Position numbers and translations under genes: made by a program. Of a DNA stretch of 64,000 nucleotides, positions 7,329-64,000 are shown piece by piece. The DNA lies in the NCBI RefSeq assembly GCF_000146325.1, contig NZ_GL397067.1, positions 375,747-439,746 of the forward strand. Direction: 5' to 3'. The number at the start of each line of letters is the position of its first letter. The first letter of the stretch is position 1. The notes under the pieces are model-generated. The model ran no database searches and had not been told where the DNA came from. It saw only the letters and a program-made list of their open reading frames with translations. This DNA comes from Pediococcus acidilactici DSM 20284. Its GTDB lineage: Bacteria > Bacillota > Bacilli > Lactobacillales > Lactobacillaceae.

Positions 7329-7781
7329 ATGAAATACACTGCTTATATTTTTGGGCTAATTCTATTAATAGCTGATCAAGCATTTAAATTTTTTATTAGC
7401 CACACGATTCCCTTAGGTGCAGTATGGCCATTAATTCCAGGTGCACTGTCGTTAACTAATTTACGTAATGACGGGGCAGCCTGGAGTATTTTGGCAGGAA
7501 GCCAACTTTTATTTACTCTAATCACAATCGTTGCGCTCTTTGTTTTGGGCTATTTATTAATTACGCAGCATAACCACGTTTGGTATCGTTGGGGCTTGAG
7601 CCTAATGATTAGTGGCACGCTGGGTAATTTTATTGACCGCATTCGGTTAAAGTACGTGGTGGATATGTTTCAAGTGGATTGGTTTAATTTTCCAATCTTT
7701 AACATTGCCGATAGTTGCTTAACCATCGGAGTGCTCATTTTAATGATTGCGATTATGCGAGATAACCGAATTGAAGGATAA
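7329..7781 (+). CDS. lspA: Lipoprotein signal peptidase II
   Basis: Membrane aspartyl protease that removes signal peptides from lipidated prolipoproteins. 150 residues, four membrane helices. Catalytic aspartates are present: Asp112 in VVDMF and Asp128 in FNIADS; the GNFIDRI block precedes them. It sits 12 bases after fhs and 9 before the pseudouridine synthase; the lspA-rluD pair is standard in Firmicutes. Confidence 0.96.
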   Translation: MKYTAYIFGLILLIADQAFKFFISHTIPLGAVWPLIPGALSLTNLRNDGAAWSILAGSQLLFTLITIVALFVLGYLLITQHNHVWYRWGLSLMISGTLGNFIDRIRLKYVVDMFQVDWFNFPIFNIADSCLTIGVLILMIAIMRDNRIEG

Positions 7782-7790
7782 GGGGATTTT

Positions 7791-8699
7791 ATGAAAGAAA
7801 TTAATTTTACGATTGAAGAATCTGCAAAGGGGCGTTTGGATAAGGTGATTGCGGAAAACGTCGCTGATCTAACCCGTTCTCAAGTGCAAAGCTTGATTAA
7901 AAAAGGGCAGATTCTGGTAAACGACGTGCCTACTACCAATCGTTATCAAGTTAAACCGAACGATCAAGTTATAATCAAGCTACCAGATCCGGTAGCAATT
8001 GACGTTCAGCCCGAAAAAATGGATTTAGATATTGTATATGAAGATGACGACGTGATTGTTGTTAATAAGCCCCAGGGTATGGTTGTCCATCCTGCTCCCG
8101 GGCACGATCATGGAACTTTGGTGAACGGACTACTGGCCCACACGCCTTTGGCAACGATTAATGGGGAGTTGCGCCCTGGAATTGTGCATCGAATTGACAA
8201 GGATACTTCCGGATTGCTTATGGTTGCTAAAAACGACCAAGCTTTAGTAAGCTTGAGCAAACAGTTAAAGGACAAAACTAACCAACGTAAGTATTGGGCA
8301 ATCGTTCATGGTAATATCAAAGAAGATACTGGTACGATTAATGCACCAATTGGTCGTTCTAAAAAAGATCGCAAAAAAATGGCCATCAACGAGGAAGGTC
8401 GCCCGGCGGTCACACATTTTAAAGTTTTAGAACGGTTTGGCGAATATACCCTCATAGAATGCCAGCTAGAAACCGGACGAACCCATCAAATTCGGGTGCA
8501 CCTTAAGTACATTGGTCATCCCGTAGCGGGAGATCCGTTATACGGTCCCCGAAAGACCTTGAAGGGAAACGGCCAGTTTTTACATGCTAAATTACTAGGG
8601 TTTAAACACCCGCGGACTGGCGAAGAAATGGTGTTTGAAGTTGATCCACCAGCTATTTTCCAGGCCACTTTAAAAAAATTACGAGCCATTAGTGACTAA
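7791..8699 (+). CDS. rluD: RluD/YlyB-family rRNA pseudouridine synthase
   Basis: 302 residues. An S4 RNA-binding domain (about 13-70) precedes the RluA-family catalytic domain with HRIDKDTSGL (133-141), where Asp136 is the catalytic residue. Conserved ETGRTHQIRVHL lies further on. The target is likely 23S rRNA by family; the exact uridines cannot be inferred. It directly follows lspA and precedes pyrR, the same order as in Bacillus. Confidence 0.94.
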   Translation: MKEINFTIEESAKGRLDKVIAENVADLTRSQVQSLIKKGQILVNDVPTTNRYQVKPNDQVIIKLPDPVAIDVQPEKMDLDIVYEDDDVIVVNKPQGMVVHPAPGHDHGTLVNGLLAHTPLATINGELRPGIVHRIDKDTSGLLMVAKNDQALVSLSKQLKDKTNQRKYWAIVHGNIKEDTGTINAPIGRSKKDRKKMAINEEGRPAVTHFKVLERFGEYTLIECQLETGRTHQIRVHLKYIGHPVAGDPLYGPRKTLKGNGQFLHAKLLGFKHPRTGEEMVFEVDPPAIFQATLKKLRAISD

Positions 8700-8779
8700 G
8701 AAATTTTTGCACAAGGTTGAAAAAGATTTAGATAACGTAAGTATGGCGTTGATATTAAAACTACGGAGGAGCTGACATT

Positions 8780-9313
8780 ATGGAAAAAGAAATTATGGAT
8801 GCAATGGCGATGAAACGAGCGTTGACTCGCATTACATATGAAATCATCGAACGGAATAAGGGCGTTGAAGATATTGTTTTAATTGGCATTAAAACTCGGG
8901 GAGTGTACATTGCTAAACGAATTGCTGAACGCCTGAAACAATTAGAGAATATTGATATTCCAGTTGGCGAGTTGGATATTGCGGAGTATCGCGACGATCA
9001 ACGCGATGGGGCAGGCAAGCGGCCTACCAAAACTAATGCTAACCTATCTAAAATTGACTTGAAAGACAAGAAGGTTATCTTGATCGACGACGTATTGTAT
9101 ACTGGGAGAACGATTCGGGCGGCAATGGATGCCATTATGGACATTAACCGGCCAGCGCAAATTAGTTTAGCTGTTTTGGTCGACCGCGGACACCGTGAAT
9201 TACCAATTCGAGCAGATTTCGTCGGGAAAAACATTCCTACTGCCCAGAATGAAAAAATAAACGTCTCCGTTCGTGAAATCGACGATGAAGACGTTGTGTT
9301 ATTAACGAATTAA
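8780..9313 (+). CDS. pyrR: PyrR: pyrimidine operon regulator / uracil phosphoribosyltransferase
   Basis: RNA-binding attenuation protein that senses UMP/UTP, with weak UPRT activity. 177 residues. The PRPP loop [13 protein letters not shown] (99-111) and the conserved [18 protein letters not shown] segment are intact, so this copy looks functional. AACTACGGAGGAGC precedes the ATG. No PyrR-binding-loop consensus or attenuator hairpin is visible in the 80 bases upstream or in the 28 bases before carA, so if it regulates this block it does so differently; it may act at pyr genes elsewhere. Confidence 0.93.
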
Positions 9314-9341
9314 AGGTGCATTAAATTGTGGAGGTGGCATT

Positions 9342-10427
9342 ATGGCAGACCGTTACTTGATTTTAGAAGATGGTTCTGTTTTTAAAGGCAAAGCATTTGG
9401 CTCACGAGCAACCACCTTTGGCGAAGTTGTTTTTAATACCGTAATGACCGGCTATCAGCAGGTGATTACTAATCAAATTTACCATAATCAAATTATTGTT
9501 TTTTCTCAACCAACCATTGGTGCGGTCGGTATTGACCGCTCGAGTTATGAATCTGTTGACCCAACTTGTAAGGGAGTGATTGTCCGTGATGTCGCCGACG
9601 TTTCCATTAACCGGCGTCGGCGCCTTTCGCTGGACGAATATTTAAAGCGACAAAACATTCCGGGAATTTCTGGAATTGATACCCGTGCATTAATTAAAAA
9701 ACTACGCACCAACGGTAAAATGAAGGGAAGCATTATCGATCCGGTTAAGGATTTAGAACATGCATTTGACCAACTCCGGGCGATTGTCTTGACTAATCAA
9801 CAGGTAAACCAAGTTTCAACCCCTAAACCATTCCCTAATCCAGGAAATGGTAAAAATGTGGTGGTAATTGATTTAGGACTAAAATATGGTATTTTACGGC
9901 AGTTAAACCAACGAGATTGCAACGTTACGGTTTTAACTTATTCAGCAACTGCCGATACTATTTTTAGCCTTGATCCGGACGGTGTGATTATTTCCACGGG
10001 TCCCGGGAATCCCAATGATTTACCAGCGGAAGTTATCGAAATGATTCAAACCGTACAGCGCAATAATATTCCTTTATTTGCGATTGGGTTGGGGCATGAA
10101 GCATTTGCAATTGCAAATGGTTGCCAAATTAGTGAACTAACCTCTGAGCATCACGGCGCTAATCATCCAATTTTATCGGTAATTACCGACGAAATAATGT
10201 ACGCATCACATGGTCAGGGATACACGGTAGACCCAGCAACCGTGAACCGCAAGGATTTAATTGTTACGCATTATGATATGATTGATCACTCAATTCAAGG
10301 TTTACGGCACCGGGACTTCCCCGCATTTAGCGTCCAATTTTTCCCTGATAGTTCACCAGGACCTCGCGAAGCAACCGAAATGTTTGATGAATTTATGGAA
10401 ATGATGACGACAAGAGGGGGCCGTTAA
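9342..10427 (+). CDS. carA: Carbamoyl-phosphate synthase small-subunit homologue, glutaminase triad lost
   Basis: 361 residues, full family length, with the N-terminal CarA domain (1-150) and the class I glutaminase fold (170-355). The nucleophile elbow normally reads GICLGHQ; here it is AIGLGHE, with Gly249 in place of the catalytic Cys. The distal motif HPEASPGP reads FPDSSPGP, so the catalytic His and Glu are Phe334 and Asp336. The conserved SQNHG reads SHGQG (289-293). It should not hydrolyse glutamine. The frame is open, a GGAGGTGG site precedes the ATG, and CarB starts one base after its stop. The name reflects homology only, not activity. Confidence 0.85.
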   Translation: MADRYLILEDGSVFKGKAFGSRATTFGEVVFNTVMTGYQQVITNQIYHNQIIVFSQPTIGAVGIDRSSYESVDPTCKGVIVRDVADVSINRRRRLSLDEYLKRQNIPGISGIDTRALIKKLRTNGKMKGSIIDPVKDLEHAFDQLRAIVLTNQQVNQVSTPKPFPNPGNGKNVVVIDLGLKYGILRQLNQRDCNVTVLTYSATADTIFSLDPDGVIISTGPGNPNDLPAEVIEMIQTVQRNNIPLFAIGLGHEAFAIANGCQISELTSEHHGANHPILSVITDEIMYASHGQGYTVDPATVNRKDLIVTHYDMIDHSIQGLRHRDFPAFSVQFFPDSSPGPREATEMFDEFMEMMTTRGGR

Positions 10428-10428
10428 G

Positions 10429-12888
10429 TTGGCTAGATTTCACGCAAGAAACGTTTTAATTATTGGTAACGGACCAACGCAAATTGGTCGCGATACGGAA
10501 AGCGAAGCAGCAGCCGCACAAATTATTGAGATTTTTGCGCAAAAGGGACGTAATTTATTTTACGTAACCAACGATGCTAACTCCGTAATCCCGCAACTAG
10601 ACGTGCCAATTAACTTTATCGTCACCGAATTAACGGTGAACAATTTAATCCAGATTCTTCGAGAACATGAAATCGACGTAATCTTGCCGGTAGTAGGTAA
10701 TACTGGCGGGCTACAGTTAGCGGAGCAGTTAAATGAATCTGGGATCCTAAAAGAGCTTAATATTCGGACAATGGGCGTCACGACCACTACGATCCACAAC
10801 ATCAATAATCCTGAATTGATGAATAAAGTCCTGCGACATATTAAGGAACCAATTATTCCGACGACGGTAGTGGAAAACGAAAAAAACGCGGTTATGTTTG
10901 CTAAGCGAGTGGGGTTCCCGATATTAATCAAACCGATTGCTTCCTTAACTAAGACAAACCGAATTAAATGCGATAACGAACACCAGTTACAAGAAGTGTT
11001 AGAGACGGCCTTCAAGGTCTCGACAACTAACCAAGTTGCCGTAGAAAAGAGCGTAGTGGGCTATAAAGAGATTGAGATGACCGTGATTAGAGACGCAGAA
11101 GGTTCGAAGCTACTTATTAATGGTGCCGAAGACCTTAACCCAATCGGTGTTCATTCGGGTGATTCGATTATCTTTAGTCCAACGCAAACGTTGACCGATA
11201 CAGAATTTCAAGAATTGCGGGCTTCGGCATTAAAAATTACCGAAGTTTTGAAGATTAAGGGCGTTTGTCATGTCCAATACGCACTTGACCCGACGAACGG
11301 CAAGTACTTCGTAACACGAATCAATCCGTTCTTTGACCGGACTACGGCTTTTGCAGCGCGAGCAACTGGCTATCCCGTTGCTACAGTAGTGGCCGAGATC
11401 TTATTAGGAAAGAACCTTCGCGAAATTGAGCTAACCGGAGTGCAAAAACACGACGCCTTGGCATTAATTGAGCCTACGTTAGATCATATTGCGGTACGCT
11501 TTCCGACATGGTCGTTTGCTAGCTTTAAGAATGCGGATCAAGAGTTAAATACGAAAATGAAATCAACGGGAGCAGTAATGTCTTTCGGACGGAGCGCGGA
11601 AGAAGCTCTTCAAAAGGCGATTCGCTCAGTAGATTCGACGACAGCTGCGGAACAAGCGGCCCTGGACGAATCCCAATTGAGCGAGGCGCAACTGATTAAC
11701 GTCTTGATCCACGAGCGGGCGGGCGAAGTTTACTATTTACTAGAGGCTTTACGACGAGGTTATACAGTTGACGAGCTTGCTGAAATGACGCACATTGACG
11801 CTTTTTATTTCTACAAATTACGGCATTTAATTAAAGTTGAAAACCGTCTAAAGGCCCACCATTTTGATGCCGAGGCTTTACGAGAAGCGAAATACTTTGG
11901 ATTTGGAGACACACAAATTGCCCACCTCTGGCGCACCACTCCTAGTGCAGTACGTAAATTTCGGACGGAAACGGCTAAAGTATTTCCGACCTACAAGGGC
12001 GTTGAGCCTACCGCTGGGGAATTTCCATACCTCACCAACACCTATTATTCAACTTTTGAAGATGAAGACGAGGCTGTGCAGATTTCCGGTAAAAAGGTGT
12101 TAGTTTTAGGCACGGCAAACAGCCAGGTGGGAACGAATAGTGCTGCAGAGTATACCACTTTTCAAACCTTACGGCGGTGTAAGACTTTAGGGTACAAAGT
12201 GATTTTAATTAACAATAACCCTAACGCAATTACTTTTAACCAGCAATTAGCGGACAAAGTCTATTTAGAGCCCTTAACCGTGGAAAATTGTTTGAATATT
12301 ATCCAACGTGAAAAGCCTGATAAAGTGCTGGCTCAAGGAAAATGGCAAATTGTTACACAGTTAACCGAACAAAACATTGAAATTGCGCAAATCCCTCTAA
12401 GCCGAACGACGCGGTCAGAAAACATCGGAGCTGATTACATGGCGGTAATTAGTAAGATAAATGGTCAAACCCATCTATTTGGCATTATCGGGGTAGATCA
12501 GAATAGACTGTTTAGTTTTGCTGAGAACTCAGTCGTGGATCAACAGTTAGATACCTCGGCAATTGATGAGGAAGCTAATCAAATTGAACATGACGGAATC
12601 TTTTCGGTAATGTTGAAAAAAGAAGCTTCCGCGTTGAAGGTGATTAGCTGTGTACCGGTGGCAATCCAGGATTTACCATTCTTATCCCTTGCATTTAACC
12701 AAGATTTTGCAGGAATGATTACTGAAATTACGCTTACCGGAACGTTCCAAATTGAAGAACACCCGGTTCGGATGGCTAGGTATCACTACGAACATGTTTA
12801 TCCGTATAAGCAATTTGGGTTAACGCAACCACAAAGGGCGCCATACTCCTTAGCAATTGGTGCCAAACTAGAACAAGCTGACTCATAG
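10429..12888 (+). CDS. carB: Carbamoyl-phosphate synthase large-subunit homologue, shortened and catalytically degenerate
   Basis: 819 residues against about 1060 for active CarB. Residues 1-400 match the carboxyphosphate ATP-grasp half and 400-550 the oligomerisation domain. The glycine-rich ATP loop (GGTGGG) is replaced by LTKTNR (173-178), and the metal-binding motif EVNPR by RINPF (297-301), losing Glu and Arg. The second half keeps its N-terminal Rossmann part (about 552-655), but roughly 150 residues of the second ATP-grasp are missing and its tail reads VISCVPVAIQD where VLEVNPRASRT is expected. The C-terminal MGS-like allosteric domain is absent. Start is TTG after GAGGGGGCC, coupled to carA. 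Confidence 0.82.
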   Translation: MARFHARNVLIIGNGPTQIGRDTESEAAAAQIIEIFAQKGRNLFYVTNDANSVIPQLDVPINFIVTELTVNNLIQILREHEIDVILPVVGNTGGLQLAEQLNESGILKELNIRTMGVTTTTIHNINNPELMNKVLRHIKEPIIPTTVVENEKNAVMFAKRVGFPILIKPIASLTKTNRIKCDNEHQLQEVLETAFKVSTTNQVAVEKSVVGYKEIEMTVIRDAEGSKLLINGAEDLNPIGVHSGDSIIFSPTQTLTDTEFQELRASALKITEVLKIKGVCHVQYALDPTNGKYFVTRINPFFDRTTAFAARATGYPVATVVAEILLGKNLREIELTGVQKHDALALIEPTLDHIAVRFPTWSFASFKNADQELNTKMKSTGAVMSFGRSAEEALQKAIRSVDSTTAAEQAALDESQLSEAQLINVLIHERAGEVYYLLEALRRGYTVDELAEMTHIDAFYFYKLRHLIKVENRLKAHHFDAEALREAKYFGFGDTQIAHLWRTTPSAVRKFRTETAKVFPTYKGVEPTAGEFPYLTNTYYSTFEDEDEAVQISGKKVLVLGTANSQVGTNSAAEYTTFQTLRRCKTLGYKVILINNNPNAITFNQQLADKVYLEPLTVENCLNIIQREKPDKVLAQGKWQIVTQLTEQNIEIAQIPLSRTTRSENIGADYMAVISKINGQTHLFGIIGVDQNRLFSFAENSVVDQQLDTSAIDEEANQIEHDGIFSVMLKKEASALKVISCVPVAIQDLPFLSLAFNQDFAGMITEITLTGTFQIEEHPVRMARYHYEHVYPYKQFGLTQPQRAPYSLAIGAKLEQADS

Positions 12889-12905
12889 TTTTAAGATTAG
12901 AGCAT

Positions 12906-12999
12906 AAAAAAACTGTCATTATAAAGTCAATTATGAATACACCTGAGAACTTAACTTCTAAGTGTGTTCCGTTATCTGACTTAATATGACAGTTTTTTT
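12906..12999. terminator. Long bidirectional terminator between carB and rqcH
   Basis: An imperfect inverted repeat of about 94 bases: outer arms AAAAAAACTGTCAT and its complement ATGACAGTTTTTTT are perfect, and inner arms (AAAGTCA / TGACTTA; ACACCT / AGTGTGT) pair with mismatches. Poly-A on one side and poly-T on the other let it stop both converging genes. Confidence 0.8.
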
Positions 13000-13010
13000 G
13001 AATTAGTTAG

Positions 13011-14726
13011 TTATTTTTTCTGCATCAATTTTTGAACGACCGTAATCTGTGGGGTAACTTTTAAAGTACGTTGCCCTTCGTAAATCACAAATCCCGGTTT
13101 AGCGCCATTCGGTTTACGGATATTCTTTACTGGTACGTAATCAACAGGTACGTTAGCTGAATTCTTTCCCTTTGAATAATATGCTGCAATTGTAGCTGCT
13201 TCAATCAGGGTTTGTTCTGACGGCTGGCTACTTTCTATGATAACGTGTGAACCAGGAATATCTTTAGCATGTAGCCAATAGTAATCTTTTTTGGCGGTCT
13301 TCAATGTTAAACGATCGTTTTGGGCATCATTTTTTCCCACCAAAATAGGTGTTTGATCGCTGGAAATAAACTGCTCCGGCTTACTAATAACGTTTTTGAC
13401 ACGTTTTTTAGGATTCCTTTGCTTACGAAGGTAACCTTCATTTTCCAACTCGATTTTAATTTCGGCCAAATCTTCTGGTTTAGCCAAATCAATTTGAGTT
13501 TCAATATTGTCCAGAAAAGCAATTTCACTTTCGGTCTGCGCAATCTGTTCGCTAACGTACTTGACGGCATTTTTTTCCTTTTGGTACTTTTTAAAATACT
13601 TTTGTGCGTTCTGCGACGGTGATAATTGGTTTGATAGTTTGATCGTAATTGGTTGATTCTGATCATAAAAGTTGGGCAATTCAACGGAAGTCATTCCACG
13701 CTTGATCTGGCTTAAATACGTGGTTAATACCTCTCCTTTAATCCGGTAGCTATCAGCATACTGGGTTTGAGCCATTGTATTTTGCAATTTTTTTAGCTTT
13801 TTACGATTTTTCTTTAATTCATTACGCACTACCCGAATTAATTGATGTCCCCGTTGCTGAACCCGATCCCGTTGGACTTTCTCAAAATAGTATTGATCCA
13901 GCATTTCAGAAAGGCTATTAAAGGCTTGCAAATTTGGTTGATCCGCAGTTAACGTAGGCTGGATTGCTGAATAGGTTAACTTTTTAGCCTGAGACTCGTA
14001 AATAAATCCTTTTGGGCCCGTATTGAAGCAATCTAAGAACTCGTGGACAATCGTTGCGGGAGTTTGTCCATTAATTAAGCGATAAGCTAATTCAAGGGCA
14101 TTTTCTTTGCCAAAGCCTTGAAATGTGGCTTGAATTTGCTTAGCTAAAACTTCATAATTTGGGTAATCCCGAAGCAAATTGTCCCAGGTTTGCTGGTTAG
14201 AGTCAGTAAAGGGGTTCAATAATTCTTGAGCGGGTGGGGTAATGTATTGTGCGCCCGGAACTAACATCCGATATCGGTTTTGATCAGCAGAAATGTGTTT
14301 GATCGTGTCGATAATTTTTTGCGAGCTGCCTAAGTACAAAATAACGTTACTACGCCGACCCATAATCTCAACTGATAGGATTACGTCTTCTTCGTCACCA
14401 ATATCGTTACGGTGTGAAAAATAGAAGTTAATAATACGGTCATTATCCAGTTGCTTAACCGACTTTAAAATAGCGCCCTCAAGGTGTTTCCGTAAGCTCA
14501 TTACAAAATTGCTAGGAGTAGCGGGGTTGGATAGGGCTTGGTTAGTAACTTGAACACGTGCATAATTAGGGTGCGAGGAAATTAGTAAAGGAACGTTTTT
14601 CCGATTTGCTCGGATAGTGAGTACTAATTCACTTTGGTAAGGTTGGTAAATTTTAGCTACGCGGCCACTTTCAAGACTGCGTAACTCGTTAACCATGGCG
14701 TGGGTAAATAAACCATCAAAGGCCAT
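13011..14726 (-). CDS. rqcH: RqcH (NFACT-family ribosome quality-control protein; older name FbpA)
   Basis: Binds stalled 50S-peptidyl-tRNA complexes and directs C-terminal alanine tailing of stuck nascent chains. 571 residues: NFACT-N domain (1-about 210) with Asp96-Arg97 matching the essential Asp-Arg pair of Bacillus RqcH, a helix-hairpin and long coiled-coil middle (about 285-430), and the NFACT-R domain with WLHAKDIPGSHVII (about 484-497). It was formerly annotated as fibronectin-binding protein. It is transcribed away from marR through a shared symmetrical promoter region. Confidence 0.93.
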   Translation of the reverse strand: MAFDGLFTHAMVNELRSLESGRVAKIYQPYQSELVLTIRANRKNVPLLISSHPNYARVQVTNQALSNPATPSNFVMSLRKHLEGAILKSVKQLDNDRIINFYFSHRNDIGDEEDVILSVEIMGRRSNVILYLGSSQKIIDTIKHISADQNRYRMLVPGAQYITPPAQELLNPFTDSNQQTWDNLLRDYPNYEVLAKQIQATFQGFGKENALELAYRLINGQTPATIVHEFLDCFNTGPKGFIYESQAKKLTYSAIQPTLTADQPNLQAFNSLSEMLDQYYFEKVQRDRVQQRGHQLIRVVRNELKKNRKKLKKLQNTMAQTQYADSYRIKGEVLTTYLSQIKRGMTSVELPNFYDQNQPITIKLSNQLSPSQNAQKYFKKYQKEKNAVKYVSEQIAQTESEIAFLDNIETQIDLAKPEDLAEIKIELENEGYLRKQRNPKKRVKNVISKPEQFISSDQTPILVGKNDAQNDRLTLKTAKKDYYWLHAKDIPGSHVIIESSQPSEQTLIEAATIAAYYSKGKNSANVPVDYVPVKNIRKPNGAKPGFVIYEGQRTLKVTPQITVVQKLMQKK

Positions 14727-16224: not shown

Positions 16225-16575
16225 TTACAGTTGGCTGCCAAGAGCTGCCAGAAGTAATCCGCCTAGTAAACTCGCGAGTGCGTAAAGCACCGCGAGTTTT
16301 TTTGTATTTGGTTGTTTGAATAGGGTGACTACCTCATTTGCAAACGTTGAGAAGGTTGAAAAACCTCCAAGGACACCGCTAGTTAGCAAAATTTGGGTAA
16401 GGGGGCTGGTAATTACGCTAGTTAAATAACCAATCAAAAAACAAGCTAGCATGTTAATTAAAAAGGTTGACCAAGGGAAGCTTTCAGAAAGGGCCTGCCG
16501 ATTAATGAAGGTGGTTGCCCAAAAACGAAAAAGGGCGCCTAGAGCACTTCCAAGGCTCACAATTAATAAACTCAT
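16225..16575 (-). CDS. crcB: Fluoride exporter CrcB/Fluc, second subunit
   Basis: 116 residues, four membrane helices. Fluc signatures GALFRF near the N-terminus, NMLACFLIGYL (canonical N-x-x-GSF-x-x-G), and GGFSTFSTF with the Phe-box residues lining the fluoride path. The ATG at 16575 shares its A with the stop of the upstream crcB and has AAGGAATGGGAG in front; longer in-frame starts lie inside the upstream gene. Tandem crcB genes form heterodimeric channels in many lactobacilli. Confidence 0.92.
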   Translation of the reverse strand: MSLLIVSLGSALGALFRFWATTFINRQALSESFPWSTFLINMLACFLIGYLTSVITSPLTQILLTSGVLGGFSTFSTFANEVVTLFKQPNTKKLAVLYALASLLGGLLLAALGSQL

Positions 16576-16976
16576 TACTCCCATTCCTTTCGATAATGAT
16601 GCAAAATCTGTTTGCCGCCAATTTGGCCCGCATAGGCGCAAAGTACTCCTAGAAGAAGGGAAAGTATCATAAAGCTACCACCGTTAATCCATTGCAAATG
16701 TACCAGCAGTTTATCTGAGGATAGAATAAATGTTGAAAAGGTAGTAAAGCCGCCCATTAATCCCGTCGTAAGCCCCACGTTAATAAAATCAGAAGTTTCT
16801 AACGCAGTTAATAGGCCCCCTGTTAGAATACCTAGAAGAAAAGACCCCAGGAGGTTAATGATTATTAAATCTAATGGAAAAGCAGTGGCACCGTGATGGA
16901 AAAATGACTGTAATAGCAGTCGCAAAGCACCGCCAATTGCTCCAAACAGAGCAACACTAACACTTTTTTTAAACAA
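16575..16976 (-). CDS. crcB: Fluoride exporter CrcB/Fluc, first subunit
   Basis: 133 residues, four membrane helices, with GAIGGALRLLL, NLLGSFLLGILTGG and GGFTTFSTF motifs. A longer basic N-terminus than its partner. Its stop codon overlaps the start of the second crcB by one base, so the two chains are translationally coupled, in keeping with an antiparallel dual-topology dimer. The upstream region (16977-17100) does not show a recognisable fluoride riboswitch. Confidence 0.92.
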   Translation of the reverse strand: MFKKSVSVALFGAIGGALRLLLQSFFHHGATAFPLDLIIINLLGSFLLGILTGGLLTALETSDFINVGLTTGLMGGFTTFSTFILSSDKLLVHLQWINGGSFMILSLLLGVLCAYAGQIGGKQILHHYRKEWE

Positions 16977-25059: not shown

Positions 25060-25300
25060 TTCAGGGCAAATAAAAAACGACTTTTTGCCCCGAAGCTCAG
25101 CAAAAAGCCGCATTTAGTTTATAGTAAGTAAACGCTGATCTATTCGTTGAGCTTTAGCACTATACAACGTAAAAATTTTCCAATTTTAGCTACCTTAAGA
25201 AAAGCCTTGAATTCGACAATTCCTGTTCTACCCATTAGTGTCTCTCGACATTTTTGGGCAGCAGCCTATGTTTGTATAGGAGCCTCACCTAACAAATGTA
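25060..25300 (-). promoter_or_regulatory. M-box (ykoK) Mg2+ riboswitch with attenuator, mgtA leader
   Basis: On the minus strand the conserved M-box core reads GTTAGGTGAGGCTCCTATAC (about 25293-25274), then CATAGGCTGCTGCCCA, GTCGAGAGACACTAATGGG, AACAGGAATTGTCGA and AAGGCTTTTCTTAAGG. It is followed by a terminator hairpin, CGGCTTTTTGC / GCAAAAAGTCG with a TTTTTTAT tail (about 25065-25112), about 50 bases before mgtA. In this class Mg2+ binding favours the terminator. A TATGAT box at 25334-25339 is a candidate -10. Confidence 0.93.
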
Positions 25301-25728
25301 TTCAATTAAAACAGAGTACCCTGTTATGGTTTCATCATACTTTATATTTACAAATAAAACTAACGCAAACCAAACACTTAACTAATTATTTATAATTTTT
25401 TCTTGACGGTTAATAGTAACGATTTTGGGAAAGGGGGCCTCCCCAGCTAAATCCCGACTAAATTATATAAAAAGAGTGACTAAAAAAACACTTTTTTGAT
25501 TATGCTTTTTAGTATTTATAAAGTTATTCTTCAAAAGGTTCGCTCACGGTAATGGGCGAATGTTGCATGTAAAATAATTAATTGTTACCCTAGTAAAGAT
25601 ATGCAAAATGGGAAGATAAGTGTAGAAAGAAGGTTTAAATAATCGAATATAAAGACTTTATCTCATGTGTGACAGTAATTAAATTAGGACGTTTTTCTTA
25701 AAAAATATTAAATAAAGGAAGTATAAAA
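25301..25728. other. Intergenic stretch between the mgtA leader and the MFS gene
   Basis: AT-rich, about 430 bases, holding the mgtA promoter at its left. AAAAAGAGTG / CACTTTTTT at 25470-25498 could be a weak hairpin. No gene is seen; translation of both strands gives only short frames without Shine-Dalgarno sites. Confidence 0.4.
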
Positions 25729-59919: not shown

Positions 59920-60184
59920 ATTCTCTAACTCCTTTTATATCAAGGCTTTAAACACCTTGTTTGTTTTATTTTTTAAAATTGGGCAAAAATTGGGCAAATT
60001 CAAAATCTAGTAATCGCCAAATCAATTTTACCATCTTCAAAGCTGTTTGCTACTACATCTTGAGTATCCGTGTCGTTTCTAATAACGAGCATTGGGCAAA
60101 TTTAGTAAGTCGAAAAAAAGCTGTTTACACGATGTTCAATATTTAATTAGCAGTTAACTAATCTTTACTAGCCCTTAATAAAAT
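59920..60184. repeat. Gene-free stretch with three ATTGGGCAAA repeats
   Basis: ATTGGGCAAA occurs at 59978-59987, 59989-59998 and 60091-60100. Read rightward these encode IGQKLGK, like the C-terminus of many phage integrases in lactobacilli. Between them, on the minus strand, is a 30-codon frame (60000-60092) without a ribosome site. Probably a fossil phage attachment or integrase end. Confidence 0.35.
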
Positions 60185-60227
60185 AAAAAACAGAAATCAA
60201 TTCCTCGAAAATTTGGTTTCTGTTTTT
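60185..60227. terminator. Bidirectional terminator
   Basis: AAAAAACAGAAA and TTTCTGTTTTT around a 20-base loop. It separates the core block from the accessory end. Confidence 0.75.
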
Positions 60228-60278
60228 GTGTGCATCAAATCTATTCATAAAGATCCATACATACACTAGGACAAACAA

Positions 60279-60303
60279 AAAGAGAACCAAACTCGTTCTC
60301 TTT
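60279..60303 (-). terminator. Terminator after the 72-residue membrane protein gene
   Basis: Read leftward: GAGAACG, AGTTT, GGTTCTC then TTTTTG. Lies 22 bases past the stop. Confidence 0.65.
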
Positions 60304-60324
60304 CACTAGTGAAATTGATTTTGT

Positions 60325-60543
60325 CTATCCTAAACGGTCTTTATCACCAAATTCATCCTGCATTGCCATACAAAACACGTAAATGGAAAAGAATAACATT
60401 ACGAAAAATGATCCAACTACAAAATCTGCGCTTTCTTTAAGTGGCGTAAACGAAGTCATTACTAACATTAATGAGTTAGCAATTATCCAAACAATATACA
60501 GCCTTTTAGTTCGTTTCGTTAGGTTTGCCTTTTTTAATTTCAT
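60325..60543 (-). CDS. Hypothetical 72-residue membrane protein
   Basis: No family recognised. A basic N-terminus (KLKKANLTKRTKR), two membrane helices (about 15-35 and 43-62) and an acidic tail (EFGDKDRLG). GAGAGTGATTC lies before the ATG, and a terminator follows, so it is likely expressed alone. Confidence 0.6.
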   Translation of the reverse strand: MKLKKANLTKRTKRLYIVWIIANSLMLVMTSFTPLKESADFVVGSFFVMLFFSIYVFCMAMQDEFGDKDRLG

Positions 60544-60882
60544 GATGAATCACTCTCTTTACTTCACACATGCTAACTATTCCAACTTTTCTTAATTCAC
60601 AAAGCCCCTTTTAACAATTGTTATTGAAACTTCTATTAGGTTCAAATATCTACTGAATTCTGACTTTTAAAATTTGTCTTTTAGCCTATTCATACTTATA
60701 CATAGTACATTTTTGAATTAGAAAACGTTCCTACTCCCTCATTTTAATTGTAATCTTTTTTCATTCGTTTGCAAACGCTTTTTTAATCCTGAATGTCCGG
60801 CTTCGTATTTTAAGAAAAACTGCTTACCATTTAGTCAAGTATACTTTTTACAATTTTTTGAATTTTACTCAAAACTAAAAAA
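60544..60882. other. AT-rich gene-free stretch before the ISL3-family element
   Basis: No gene. Contains a perfect palindrome CGTTTGCAAACG (60766-60777) and, at 60859-60881, a copy of the 3' end of the transposase gene (see findings). Confidence 0.4.
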
Positions 60883-62324
60883 GAGCTCTATAATAACAAG
60901 TGTGGATGAACAGTAAAAAACTGTTTGTCGACACTTTTTTCATACAAAAAAGGACATATCATCATCCTTAATGCTACAAACATGTCGACCGAAACCAAAT
61001 TGAAAGCAGGTGATAATATGTCTCGTAAAGGTATTATACAAGATAATTTAACTAAAAGTGACCCTAATCTAGAAGTAAAATCTGTTATGGAAGAAAAGGA
61101 GGTTTATCGTGTGATCGGTAAATTAACCTATCGGTTAACCTCCTGTGCTTATTGTCATACAAGAAGCATTGTAAAAAACGGGTTTAAAACTGTGTATATC
61201 CGTGATATTCCCTTTAATGACAAGCCCGTCATTCTTCAGATAGATAAGCAACGCTTTTTATGCAAGGCATGTCACCGCTCTATTATCGCTCAGACTAATT
61301 TGATAAAAAAGTACGCCCAGTTAACTCAAAGATTGAAATTTAGCATTATTAACTATTTAGCTAAAGACTTATCCGTTAACAATATCGCCCAAGAATTAAA
61401 TGTTTCCCCAGTTTCAGTAAATCGAATAGTCACGGACTTGCATGATCAATGGGTCCACCCGAAAGCCACTTTACCAGAACACCTTTCTATTGATGAGGTT
61501 AGAACTACCCAACATCAAATGAGCTTTTTTGGCTATCAACGCTGAGAGTGGCGCACTAGTAACCTTATTACCTGATCGCCTTTCCCAAAAATATTATCGA
61601 TCATTTTGAACGATGTTACTCATTAACAGCTCGTAGAGCTGTCAAATCCGTAGTCTTAGATTTTAATTCTAGTTACCATACTTTTATTAAACGGCTTTTT
61701 CCAAACGCTAAAATTGTCGTGGATCGCTTCCATCTAATTCAAATGCTAAATCGCTTAATTACGCAAACTAGAATCTCTGTAATGCGTCAATTTAAATGGA
61801 ACTCCAGAAATTACCGTCTTCTTAAATATTATTGGAAACTTTACTTAAAACCGTTTAACAATCTGGCGATTAAACATCCATTTTGAAAAAACATTTAAAA
61901 GACCGATTAACTGAAACTCAAATTGTTTCGAAGGAATCAATACCGATCTGGAATTGGCTAAAGTTTATTACATTACCCAATCTTTAGCAGAAGCCATTCG
62001 AAATAATAACCATGCTCAACTAGTAAAGTTACTACAAACAAAAACCAAAAATTCATCATTACATACTTTGCTTAAAACCTTTAATGCCAGAGCTAAATCT
62101 ATTATTAACGCTATGCGTTCGCCATTATCCAACGGACGAATCGAAGGAGTTATTCGTAAAATCAAGCAAATTAATCGCACAGCCTACGGCTACCGAAATT
62201 GGCAACATCTAAGAGATCGCGTCTTTATTGAATTTTCACTCAAAACTAAAAAAAGGAAACCAATTCGTCGCTAAACGAAATGATTTCCTTAACAGCTTCT
62301 ATCCACACTTGATGACAGAGAGCC
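60883..62324 (+). mobile_element. Decayed ISL3-family insertion sequence
   Basis: Left end GAGCTCTATAATAACAAG (from 60883) and right end, read inward, GGCTCTCTGTCATCAAGTG (from 62324) share the CAAGTGTGGAT core typical of ISL3 inverted repeats. Length about 1.44 kb, normal for ISL3 members. Encloses one frameshifted transposase. Clear target duplications were not seen; both flanks are A-rich. Confidence 0.8.
61018..62274 (+). pseudogene. ISL3-family transposase, frameshifted
   Basis: From the ATG at 61018 (GCAGGTGATAAT upstream). N-terminal zinc motif CAYCHTRSIV and CKACHRS, HTH NIAQELNVSPVSVNRIV, DDE-family region VVLDFNSSYHTFIKRLFPNAK and VDRFHLIQMLNR, and C-terminal GRIEGVIRKIKQINRTAYGY. 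Reading frame must change near 61525 (T-run), 61585 (A-run), 61885 (A-run) and about 61945. The total, 1257 bases, equals 419 codons, normal for ISL3, so the element has suffered small indels rather than loss. Confidence 0.9.
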
Positions 62325-62653
62325 AAAAATATAGCGATCCTCAAAAGTTAGACCAGGAGTCTAGCTAATGCGAGTTGCCATATAAAATCGTTGTCTTTTA
62401 GTTTGTCTAATATTTTAAAAACTATACTCTAATTAAAATAATTCATTATTTAACTGGGGTTGGTTCGGTCCATACCCAGTTAGATATTCGCTTATTAAGC
62501 TACCACTTTCCATTTACTTGAATCAATTAATCTTGATGACGAACGCTTTCTTTATTATGAACAATTTCTTCATTATCATTCGAGCCTTCCAAAACAACAA
62601 AACTATAAGATATGCATTTTGCTGCGTTACCATCAATTTTGAAAATAAAAATA
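62325..62653. other. AT-rich stretch with a possible gene fragment
   Basis: On the plus strand about 47 codons (roughly 62500-62640) read LESINLDDERFLYYEQF and onward without a start or ribosome site; they may be a remnant of a lost gene. Nothing else recognised. Confidence 0.3.
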
Positions 62654-63200
62654 TCAAGATTCATTATGCAATTTTTCCAACTGAAGTCTAACTTCATTTT
62701 TTAATTTACTAAACTCACATTCTGTCATCAAATTATCACGCTTAAATCCCACATATTCTCTAATTCCTTATAAATATTTTTCAGATAATCATATTTTTCA
62801 GTATAAATTTTTGAACCATCCACACCCACTTCAAAAGGAGATTCAAAAACAAATGTATTTTGGATCTCCTGGCAAGCATTTAGAAAAATCAATGTATATT
62901 CAATAACTCTGATATATTTAAATTGGACTGGGCTATTAATATATGTAATTTCCTTATCTCTAAGATAGGCTAACCCTTCTGCAGGTATCCCTATAGAATT
63001 TATTGTCTGTCTGTATTCTATACTATCAACATACTCTTTTTTATCATATTTTTGAATTTAACATAGTTTATATAGTGCCAATACCAATTAATAATTGGTA
63101 TAAACAAAGCCGTTAAAATAAAGCGCAAACACTTTATAAAAAAATCAATGTTTTCTTTTGTTATTACTTTTGAACTTATTTCTACAACAACTTGAATCAT
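62654..63200 (-). pseudogene. Frameshifted unknown membrane-anchored protein gene
   Basis: Starts at an ATG overlapping the stop of the upstream gene (ATGA). Residues 1-50 include one membrane helix (about 19-40, FIKCLRFILTALFIPIINWY). After a lost A in an A-run near 63035 the frame continues KKEYVDSIEYRQTIN and onward (about 100 codons), then after a second lost base near 62755 REYVGFKRDNLMTE to the stop at 62654. With both bases restored the length is exactly 183 codons. No family recognised; AT-rich, unlike the core genes. Confidence 0.6.
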
Positions 63201-63667
63201 ATAATTGGTTTCCAATCGTCTGTAAATAACTGTTGAACCGTATTATCTTCTAAATTTATTGGGGATTCTCTTATGTCATCAAGTTCAAAATCTACCCATT
63301 CAATGCAATAAGAAATATCATATTTTTCATTTTCAGGCATTCTATTAATTGCACCGATTAAATAATAATGTTTTGTACTGCTAATAAGATTATCGTCCGT
63401 AACATTACAGACAATACCTACCACTTTTTTTAAGGAATTTGCATAGTCAACAATATACCCTTTGGTTAAAGTTCCAGAAACACCAACTATATTAGCAATT
63501 TCTTTTTCAGATATATATAATTTATCTTTTCCCAATAAGTTACGTTTATTAAACAATTCAATAAATAAACTCAATTGTTTTTTTGCTGTTTCAAGTTCAT
63601 CTATTAAACCATGAACAGTAAAAAAACAATCTTTTGAGTCATTATACATGCTTTGTATATATTTCAT
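63197..63667 (-). CDS. Hypothetical 156-residue protein, coupled to a membrane-anchored partner
   Basis: No family recognised. A predicted helical N-terminus (about 20-45), a middle segment EKEIANIVGVSGTLTKGYIV that could be an HTH-like helix pair, then mixed alpha/beta and an acidic C-terminus (WVDFELDDIRESPINLED). The stop overlaps the next start as ATGA, so the two are translationally coupled. AT-rich and next to a decayed IS: likely acquired. Role unknown; a phage- or defence-linked pair is only a guess. Confidence 0.65.
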   Translation of the reverse strand: MKYIQSMYNDSKDCFFTVHGLIDELETAKKQLSLFIELFNKRNLLGKDKLYISEKEIANIVGVSGTLTKGYIVDYANSLKKVVGIVCNVTDDNLISSTKHYYLIGAINRMPENEKYDISYCIEWVDFELDDIRESPINLEDNTVQQLFTDDWKPII

Positions 63668-64000
63668 AAAATTCTCTCCATAGTTATTACATATTAAATA
63701 ACAAAAACTGACTTAACTAAACAAAAAAATTTCGAGCCAGTTCCGAATATATCTAGGTTTTAACAACAATTTATCAACCATTTTTTCTGATAATAATTAG
63801 ATGTGTTTATAACCGAAAATATGATAAATGAACATTAATTTAACACATGATTCCTTTTAAATAAATGCTTAATAGCCCACACCTCATACAGTAATACTTT
63901 AGGGCGTATACACTTGTTAATTATATGTTTATATTTAAAATGATTCTACTAAGAAAGCACCATATCCATTAATATGCAATATATCCTCAACAAAATTTTA
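63668..64000. other. AT-rich gene-free end of window
   Basis: No frame, RNA gene or repeat is recognised in the last 330 bases. Confidence 0.4.

Follow-up and report, generated by a model that had tools for sequence, protein, structure and literature searches.

The genes carA'-carB', which lie directly behind pyrR in the Pediococcus acidilactici DSM 20284 window (the whole analysed stretch of 64,000 nucleotides), encode a CarAB paralogue that, judged from sequence, is a pseudoenzyme pair under strong purifying selection. The residues that we take to be catalytic have been lost, the same replacements are conserved among orthologues, gene order is conserved with pyrR in most loci, and the pair is retained where a working carbamoyl-phosphate synthase (CPSase) is missing; absence of catalysis is predicted. 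The pair is a widespread family of the Lactobacillaceae, mostly located beside PyrR, and not a local oddity. The same new residues recur in the remodelled active sites of its members, and it usually stands next to pyrR; a sensing or regulatory function is therefore probable, in place of catalysis.

Organisation of the locus

The gene order around positions 9342-12888 is fhs-lspA-rluD-pyrR-carA'-carB'-rqcH, the names rluD, lspA and rqcH being assigned from the type of sequence. The features are as follows.

7329..7781, forward strand: lspA, conserved neighbour upstream
7791..8699, forward strand: rluD-type pseudouridine synthase, conserved neighbour upstream
8780..9313, forward strand: pyrR, pyrimidine attenuation regulator/UPRTase, directly 5' of carA'
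9342..10427, forward strand: carA', paralogue of the CPSase small subunit, 361 aa, ATG start
10429..12888, forward strand: carB', shortened paralogue of the CPSase large subunit, 819 aa, TTG start
13011..14726, reverse strand: rqcH-type gene, convergent neighbour downstream and right border of the locus

No PyrR other than that at 8780..9313 was detected in this genome. The open, coupled carA-carB pair reported in the preliminary description is confirmed: the two genes comprise 1180 open codons, the ribosome-site sequences ggaggtgg and agagggggcc precede the reading frames, and a gap of one base separates the carA' stop from the carB' start. A terminator scan of 8500-13100 returned one weak site, below the count in shuffled sequences, and promoter-like sites in the same interval were about as numerous as in shuffles.

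Loss of catalytic residues in CarA'

Alignment with E. coli CarA placed Gly249 of CarA' at Cys269 and Phe334 at His353, as originally described, and Glu253 at a Gln. Asp336 had been listed as a further lesion, of a catalytic Glu; this was mistaken, since each of the 22 canonical CarA in the alignment has Asp. Gly replaces the catalytic Cys in 35 of 35 aligned locus copies and in 0 of 22 canonical CarA. In a sample of 80 named relatives, picked by similarity to the query, the exchanges Cys to Gly, Gln to Glu and His to Phe are invariant (80/80), so that the Cys-His glutaminase pair is missing throughout, and equally invariant is a new HAFDQL motif. The full subfamily motif, HAFDQLxAxVLTNxQV, spans CarA' 140-155. 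Conserved positions number 128 in CarA' and 117 in canonical CarA, and 57 of the 128 are conserved in the pseudo set only. The predicted CarA' structure is weak (pTM 0.52, low pLDDT at 147-168, whole-chain TM of about 0.5 to CarA), too weak to support claims on interfaces.

Rebuilt first half and shortened second half of CarB'

In the first half of CarB', the ATP loop and metal motif are lost, in agreement with the preliminary description. In E. coli numbering, the substitutions in the first ATP-grasp are R129 to P, R169 to K, GGTGGG to TKTNRI, N283 to H, E299 to R and R303 to F, while E215, Q285 and N301 are retained. The rebuilt site of CarB' contains R178, H281, R297 and F301. Among named relatives, the metal-ligand Glu (E299) is K or R, and R303 is Y or F, in all 79 that have a residue at the respective position; the loop Gly is replaced by R178 in 78/79 and N283 by H in 76/79, and E215 is kept in 78/79.

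The second ATP-grasp had been called gone. Part of it is indeed missing, the positions of R715 and E761 being absent, but in the AF2 model (pLDDT 84.9; Z 41.7-43.1 to ten CPS structure entries) residues 3-819 align to E. coli CarB as far as 922-923, so that the C-terminal lobe persists in degenerate form. The pre-ATP-grasp domain is matched by residues 555-648, and the oligomerisation domain, said earlier to be kept, is recognised by PF02787; CarB' thus has the overall CPS fold. No residue aligned to canonical 930-1057, the allosteric domain. Conservation is far lower in CarB' than in working CarB (102 against 483 conserved positions).

Distribution, selection and origin

Of the 37 Lactobacillaceae genomes sampled, 33 have the pair or a relative, as do three genomes of another family (f4) of the same taxonomic order. 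Contig ends aside, the reading frames are open in the locus copies read. Recurrence of the same substitutions across the aligned locus copies exceeds chance, and dN/dS of CarA' is 0.005-0.022 (five unsaturated pairs). Orthologues sharing the lesions (35/35 for Cys to Gly) together with a dN/dS well below 1 had been set beforehand as the test of a new function, and both were found.

A single origin is likely but not proven. In a tree of CarA only, the 35 copies did not all group, and the AU test left one clade unrejected (p 0.50). With CarA and CarB columns joined, 34 copies fell on one side of a branch with SH-aLRT 99.8, in a quick tree that carried long-branch and composition warnings. Both trees omit G003, whose CarB' is cut by a contig end; canonical G010 and G040 were dropped for lack of a full CarA.

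The second, complete carAB that the preliminary description had proposed to look for is present at another site of the window's genome, and the canonical and pseudo pairs occur together in many sampled genomes. Five others (G001, G007, G023, G025 and G034) gave no PF00988 match except the pseudo carA, and no second CarB was seen in them. In G030 the canonical carAB is present as fragments only and the pseudo pair is whole; the three f4 genomes have one CarA each. The pair thus persists in genomes without a working CPSase.

Association with PyrR

The gene pyrR adjoins the pair in 69 of the 80 named loci. It is not adjacent in the other 11 (Paucilactobacillus, Limosilactobacillus and relatives), of which 11 have rluD and 10 have rqcH, nor in G013 and G015. 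Two of the three f4 genomes have the order pyrR-pyrB-carA'-carB'; the f4 stretches taken gave no match to rluD or rqcH. Three of the four Lactobacillaceae without the pair (G021, G022 and G035) have canonical pyr genes with their PyrR; the fourth, G027, gave no PyrR match. In G019 PyrR itself has lost its PRPP motif and the trio is still kept.

PyrR RNA elements were found 5' of pyrR at eight pseudo-pair loci, four of them exceeding the gathering score; none reached that score within the window. In the five genomes with pseudo carA as the only PF00988 match, PyrR elements precede permease genes of the uracil/xanthine or cytosine type, with a nucleoside deoxyribosyltransferase gene between element and permease in one of the two cases in G025.

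Distance covariation was calculated from 94 loci with all four genes, thinned to 30. The partial r was 0.62 for PyrR-CarA' and 0.42 for RluD-CarA', but 0.21 and 0.49, respectively, without the outlier G019, and 0.35 and 0.56 when four more divergent loci were also removed (25 loci). For CarB', PyrR and RluD gave 0.39 and 0.50 without G019 and 0.58 and 0.52 in the 25-locus set. As PyrR, CarB' in the 25-locus set apart, did not exceed RluD once G019 was removed, covariation was rejected as proof of a PyrR link. Covariation between CarA' and CarB' was maintained in all three sets (0.87, 0.84 and 0.58).

Proposed role and alternatives

The earlier interpretation as a pseudoenzyme complex is supported, and we infer a sensing or scaffold role. 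We lean, with modest confidence, towards a selected pseudo-CPSase complex that serves PyrR-linked control of pyrimidines as sensor or adaptor, its ligand and partner being putative. The paralogue behind pyrR lost the residues for the glutaminase and both phosphorylation steps and retained most of the CPS fold. According to this model, CarA' and CarB' would form a heteromer whose former active sites accept a small ligand but do not convert it, and their occupancy would be relayed to PyrR, or to the PyrR-controlled expression of genes for making pyrimidines and taking up uracil. Contacts are likely to be made by helix 138-156 of CarA' and, within the oligomerisation domain of CarB', by patch 426-464, both of them pseudo-specific; the clusters concerned (CarA' 140-160, CarB' 426-464) were chosen after inspection of the data, and their p values are accordingly descriptive.

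A regulatory or dominant-negative partner of working CarAB, joining its oligomers through the oligomerisation domain, would suit the retention of that domain, the densest patch of pseudo-specific conservation lying there, and the many genomes with both pairs. We regard it as improbable, since only the pseudo set, not the canonical set, conserves the residues of this patch, and the pair is retained in the five genomes with no other PF00988 match, in G030 and in the three f4 genomes; as the sole role, helping CarAB is rejected by this retention where working CarAB is missing. The conserved replacements (Gly, Glu and Phe in CarA'; Arg, His, Lys/Arg and Tyr/Phe in CarB') and the nearly universal E215 could also belong to an enzyme with a new reaction at the rebuilt sites. 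To this we give little credence: the Cys position has no nucleophile, the second ATP-grasp is incomplete, and in both the window and core relatives the first half has lost its Gly-rich ATP loop, R303 and the metal-ligand Glu.

Service to RluD, LspA or RqcH, or some function that has nothing to do with pyrimidines, is favoured by the company of rluD and rqcH where pyrR is not adjacent, and by RluD covariation that without G019 at least equals that of PyrR, the 25-locus value for CarB' being the exception. The two f4 loci behind pyrB, the f4 stretches without rluD or rqcH matches and the PyrR status of the four Lactobacillaceae without the pair speak against such a role, which we consider quite unlikely. 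Finally, a decaying pseudogene pair that has yet to acquire a stop would account for the lost catalytic residues and shortened second half, but open frames, the G030 locus with its intact pseudo pair and fragmented canonical carAB, and above all CarA' dN/dS and the shared replacements refute neutral decay, the probability of which is practically nil.

Relation to known systems

Compared with CarAB (E. coli 1JDB/1C30; TIGR01368, TIGR01369), the pair has the same domain order and fold and is paralogous, but is without nucleophile, His, ATP loop, metal-ligand Glu and catalytic Arg, and CarB' has an incomplete second ATP-grasp and no allosteric domain.

Human CPS1 is an ammonia-dependent CPSase whose glutaminase part has lost its nucleophile, as has CarA'; unlike the pair, CPS1 retains both ATP-grasp sites and produces carbamoyl phosphate. 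In Pseudomonas aspartate transcarbamoylase, the inactive dihydroorotase PyrC' is a dead pyrimidine-pathway enzyme retained as a structural partner; enzyme, partner and fold differ. Should our reading be true, much of the Lactobacillaceae would possess a catalytically dead but selected twin of an enzyme central to the synthesis of pyrimidines and arginine, and would retain it where the genuine enzyme was lost.

In the pyrimidine pathway, bicarbonate is used at the CPSase step. In CarB' the bicarbonate/ATP site shows near-universal exchanges in the named set (metal-ligand Glu to Lys/Arg, loop Gly to Arg, Arg of EVNPR to Tyr/Phe), as if made for holding an anion with no Mg2+ and no turnover. The pyrR2 locus of L. 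plantarum (PyrR2, lp_1782) is the same locus: this species has two PyrR, and PyrR2, which is encoded outside the pyr operon, adjoins carA'-carB'. From the operon name pyrR1BCAa1Ab1DFE, its authors had presumably already listed pyrAa2/pyrAb2.

PyrR2 has been reported, in the accessible parts of the literature, to mediate inorganic-carbon control. The pair may be the missing inorganic-carbon sensor behind PyrR2, signalling the level of bicarbonate (or glutamine, or a carbamoyl-phosphate precursor) to PyrR via CarA', a tentative proposal that we consider unlikely. If true, it would provide a tangible candidate for the way in which PyrR2 of L. plantarum senses inorganic carbon and would bear on the CO2-dependent growth of lactic acid bacteria. 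The accessible papers do not describe the CPS genes at this locus as pseudoenzymes, and no description of the pair was found in the largely non-subscription literature covered, which includes PMC7911632, PMC3582564, PMC3766115, PMC5313477, PMC3412718 and PMC5712122.

Scores against curated family models

CarB' scores below the curated cut-offs (TIGR01369, 545.9 against 1027; NF003671, 513.2 against 599). CarA' of the window passes both NF009475 (424.2 bits, cut-off 221) and TIGR01368 (359.5, cut-off 307.35) and would by score be named a CPSase small subunit. The CarA' of the five genomes in which no second CarB was seen are likewise above both cut-offs. Such genomes would thus be assigned a glutamine-using CPSase subunit, although this protein is predicted to be unable to use glutamine, and predictions of auxotrophy would be misled.

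The carA′-carB′ locus and its lesions

In the window the gene order is fhs-lspA-rluD-pyrR-carA′-carB′, followed by a convergent rqcH-type gene; fhs, lspA, rluD and rqcH are names that we take from sequence type. Plausible ribosome sites precede both frames of the pseudo pair (products CarA′ and CarB′), and the frames are closely spaced.

8780–9313, pyrR, directly 5′ of carA′
9342–10427, carA′, directly 3′ of pyrR, CarA′ of 361 aa
10429–12888, carB′, following carA′, CarB′ of 819 aa
13011–14726, rqcH-type gene, convergent with carA′-carB′

The preliminary description had proposed looking for another, complete carAB in the genome. Such a pair is present on the same contig, with frames of 367 and 1068 codons and intact catalytic residues (stretch L072).

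Lesions were called by comparison with E. coli carbamoyl-phosphate synthase (CPS, CPSase) and 22 canonical pairs from the sampled genomes. In CarA′ of the window the nucleophile Cys269 is replaced by Gly and His353 by Phe, so that the catalytic Cys and His are missing, as first described. Asp at the Glu355 position had likewise been counted as a lost active site; it was ruled out as a lesion, being common to all 22 canonical CarA. In CarB′ the changes are R129 to P, R169 to K, the Gly-rich loop to TKTNRI, N283 to H, E299 to R and R303 to F (E. coli numbering), and E215, Q285 and N301 are kept. The reported loss of the Gly-rich ATP loop and the EVNPR metal motif from the first half is borne out by these changes.

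CarB′ was modelled with confidence by AF2 (pLDDT 84.9, pTM 0.87). The model aligns over its full length with E. coli CarB, ending at residue 922–923, and superimposes on 1jdb over 787 residues (rmsd 3.5, Z 42.9), so the CPS fold persists. The claim that the second ATP-grasp is gone is therefore right only in part: compared with canonical pairs a portion of the domain is absent, but the fold continues to E. coli residue 922–923. No CarB′ residue aligned to the canonical allosteric part, 930–1057.

Selection and conserved replacements

Nei-Gojobori estimates gave dN/dS well below 1, which the preliminary description had named, together with shared catalytic losses, as support for a new function. 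Between the window and its nearest relative (G009), CarA′ has pS 0.482, pN 0.004 and dN/dS 0.005; the corresponding ratios are pyrR 0.002, rluD 0.023, lspA 0.099 and canonical carA 0.048. The four other CarA′ pairs short of saturation gave 0.008, 0.011, 0.015 and 0.022, and CarB′, where dS was computable, 0.014, 0.028, 0.033 and 0.053. All other CarA′/CarB′ comparisons are saturated (pS 0.74–0.86, pN 0.03–0.14). The C-terminal remnant of CarB′, 661–819, is its least constrained part (0.195, one pair).

REPLACEMENTS are conserved among the copies of the pair. The expected sharing of catalytic losses among orthologues was found: Cys is replaced by Gly in 35/35 aligned locus copies versus 0/22 canonical CarA. 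His353 is Phe in the 26 core copies save three with Ser (G023, G033, G036). In the nine divergent members (G014, G018, G032, three genomes of f4, another family of the order Lactobacillales, and the full-length G020, G024 and G031), sites other than Cys vary: His becomes Glu, Gln, Ser, Asp or Tyr, or is kept (G054); E299 of CarB is still Glu in several, and G031 retains most first-half CarB residues.

A scan of named records with CarA′ found 464 relatives, and the best 80 of these, picked by likeness to the query and hence a biased sample, were kept. In this set Gly249, Glu253 (for Gln), Phe334 and HAFDQL of CarA′ each occur in 80/80. One CarB′ row ends at a contig edge before these sites; of the other 79, all have Lys or Arg at E299 and Tyr or Phe at R303, 78 have Arg178 where the Gly loop was, and 76 have His at N283.

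Positions conserved to at least 92% were counted in the core pseudo copies (26) and the canonical set (22), leaving out divergent members. There are 128 in CarA′ versus 117 in canonical CarA; 57 reach this level only in the pseudo set, and ten are fixed for a different residue, including Cys, Gln and the Ser matching E. coli Ser47. The conserved set of CarA′ has shifted without being lost, as expected if the protein took on a new function. CarB′ is conserved at far fewer positions than canonical CarB (102 versus 483); 14 of its 20 pseudo-only positions lie inside 426–464 of the oligomerisation domain, an interval picked post hoc.

Distribution and order of events

The distribution was followed in the genome itself and 59 relatives. 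A shortened CarB-like ORF occurs in 12/12 sampled genus members and in 17/25 Lactobacillaceae genomes of other genera; CarB′ of G003 is truncated at a contig end. At the equivalent locus G020, G024 and G031 have a full-length but degenerate CarB, and G019 a very diverged pair of 347/659 aa. Altogether 33 of 37 sampled Lactobacillaceae have the pair or a relative of it; G021, G022, G027 and G035 are without. A canonical pyr operon with PyrR, the pyrimidine attenuation regulator, is present in G021, G022 and G035, and in G021 and G035 lies directly behind rluD, so that the pseudo pair of the other genomes lies where these have their pyr operon.

In three f4 genomes the Cys of CarA is replaced by Gly, and CarB′ measures 577–579 aa. 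Two of them, G039 (stretch L069) and G054 (L071), have the order pyrR-pyrB-carA′-carB′ and no second CarA match; their aspartate carbamoyltransferase (ATCase) may draw carbamoyl phosphate from a different source. The best 80 of the 464 named relatives come from Pediococcus, Lactiplantibacillus including L. plantarum, Secundilactobacillus, Levilactobacillus, Paucilactobacillus, Periweissella, Weissella, Limosilactobacillus, Furfurilactobacillus and some uncultured or unplaced records; CarA′ identity is 73–93% in Pediococcus stilesii, pentosaceus, cellicola, damnosus, ethanolidurans and argentinicus.

The CarB of G020, G024 and G031 (1054–1067 aa) has broken sites, but some 130 of its residues align with the allosteric part of canonical CarB; that of G031 has a dead second half and mostly kept first-half residues. 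Judging from these sequences, loss of Cys and of the sites can precede shortening. In a joined CarA+CarB tree 34 pseudo copies fall on one side of a branch (SH-aLRT 99.8); the CarA-only tree did not resolve their grouping.

Proposed link to PyrR and likely role

The pseudo carA is the sole PF00988 match in G001, G007, G023, G025 and G034, where no second CarB was seen and ATCase is missing or represented by a below-cut-off relative only. PyrR elements there precede permease genes of PF00860 (uracil/xanthine) or PF02133 (cytosine/purine/uracil), with a nucleoside deoxyribosyltransferase gene in between at one of the two sites in G025. In G030 the pseudo pair is whole and the canonical pair is left as fragments (L207:1455–2887, a 244-aa CarA piece and a 241-aa CarB C-terminal piece). 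The pair thus outlives its ancestral enzyme and is, in our sample, confined to genomes that also have a PyrR gene, adjacent or elsewhere. PyrR matches in 40 genomes are single in 38, two in G024 and none in G027.

RF00515 PyrR RNA elements lie just 5′ of pyrR at eight such loci (G001, G020, G024, G031, G032, G039, G047, G054), above gathering score at four; none reached that score in the window, and none was found in G030 or G019. In G019, pyrR-carA′-carB′ is still contiguous (L206:5042–6558), with HAFDQL and Cys to Gly present, and by eye its PyrR has lost the PRPP motif DDVLYTGRT. L. plantarum EGD-AQ4 has two PyrR genes, one adjoining carA′B′ and the other 5′ of an ATCase gene.

The pair almost certainly has no CPSase activity and is maintained by selection, as far as sequences can tell, and we call it a pseudoenzyme born from CPSase. 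The most likely reading, held with moderate confidence, is a pseudo-CPSase heteromer of CarA′ and CarB′ that would bind a ligand and act as a sensor or adaptor in PyrR-linked control. The step from a dead, selected pair to PyrR is one we infer from synteny, co-occurrence and the physiology of PyrR2, the L. plantarum PyrR outside the pyr operon, which is reported to mediate inorganic-carbon control. Adjacent pyrR in 69 of the 80 similarity-picked loci favours it; against it, pyrR is not adjacent in the other 11, nor in G013 and G015, and distance covariation does not point to PyrR in particular. In a bolder and rather improbable reading the pair would sense inorganic carbon through an anion site that holds no metal. 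A pyrR2 mutant reportedly requires high CO2; retention of the pair in genomes without ATCase speaks somewhat against carbon sensing solely for de novo synthesis.

In L. plantarum the second set of CPS genes has presumably been listed earlier, as the suffix 1 in the operon name implies. A literature search, with most subscription papers outside its scope, found in the accessible text no account of the family, of the replacements fixed in it, of its span or of its persistence where CPSase is lost.

Other features of the window

An RNase P RNA of bacterial class B lies at 2548–2923 and an M-box magnesium riboswitch at 25132–25303 on the minus strand. Two adjacent overlapping minus-strand ORFs at 16225–16976 resemble what we take to be a paired fluoride channel (crcB type). 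GC falls to 0.29–0.33 in 60001–64000, where the ORF at 60925–61545 looks, by eye, transposase-like.
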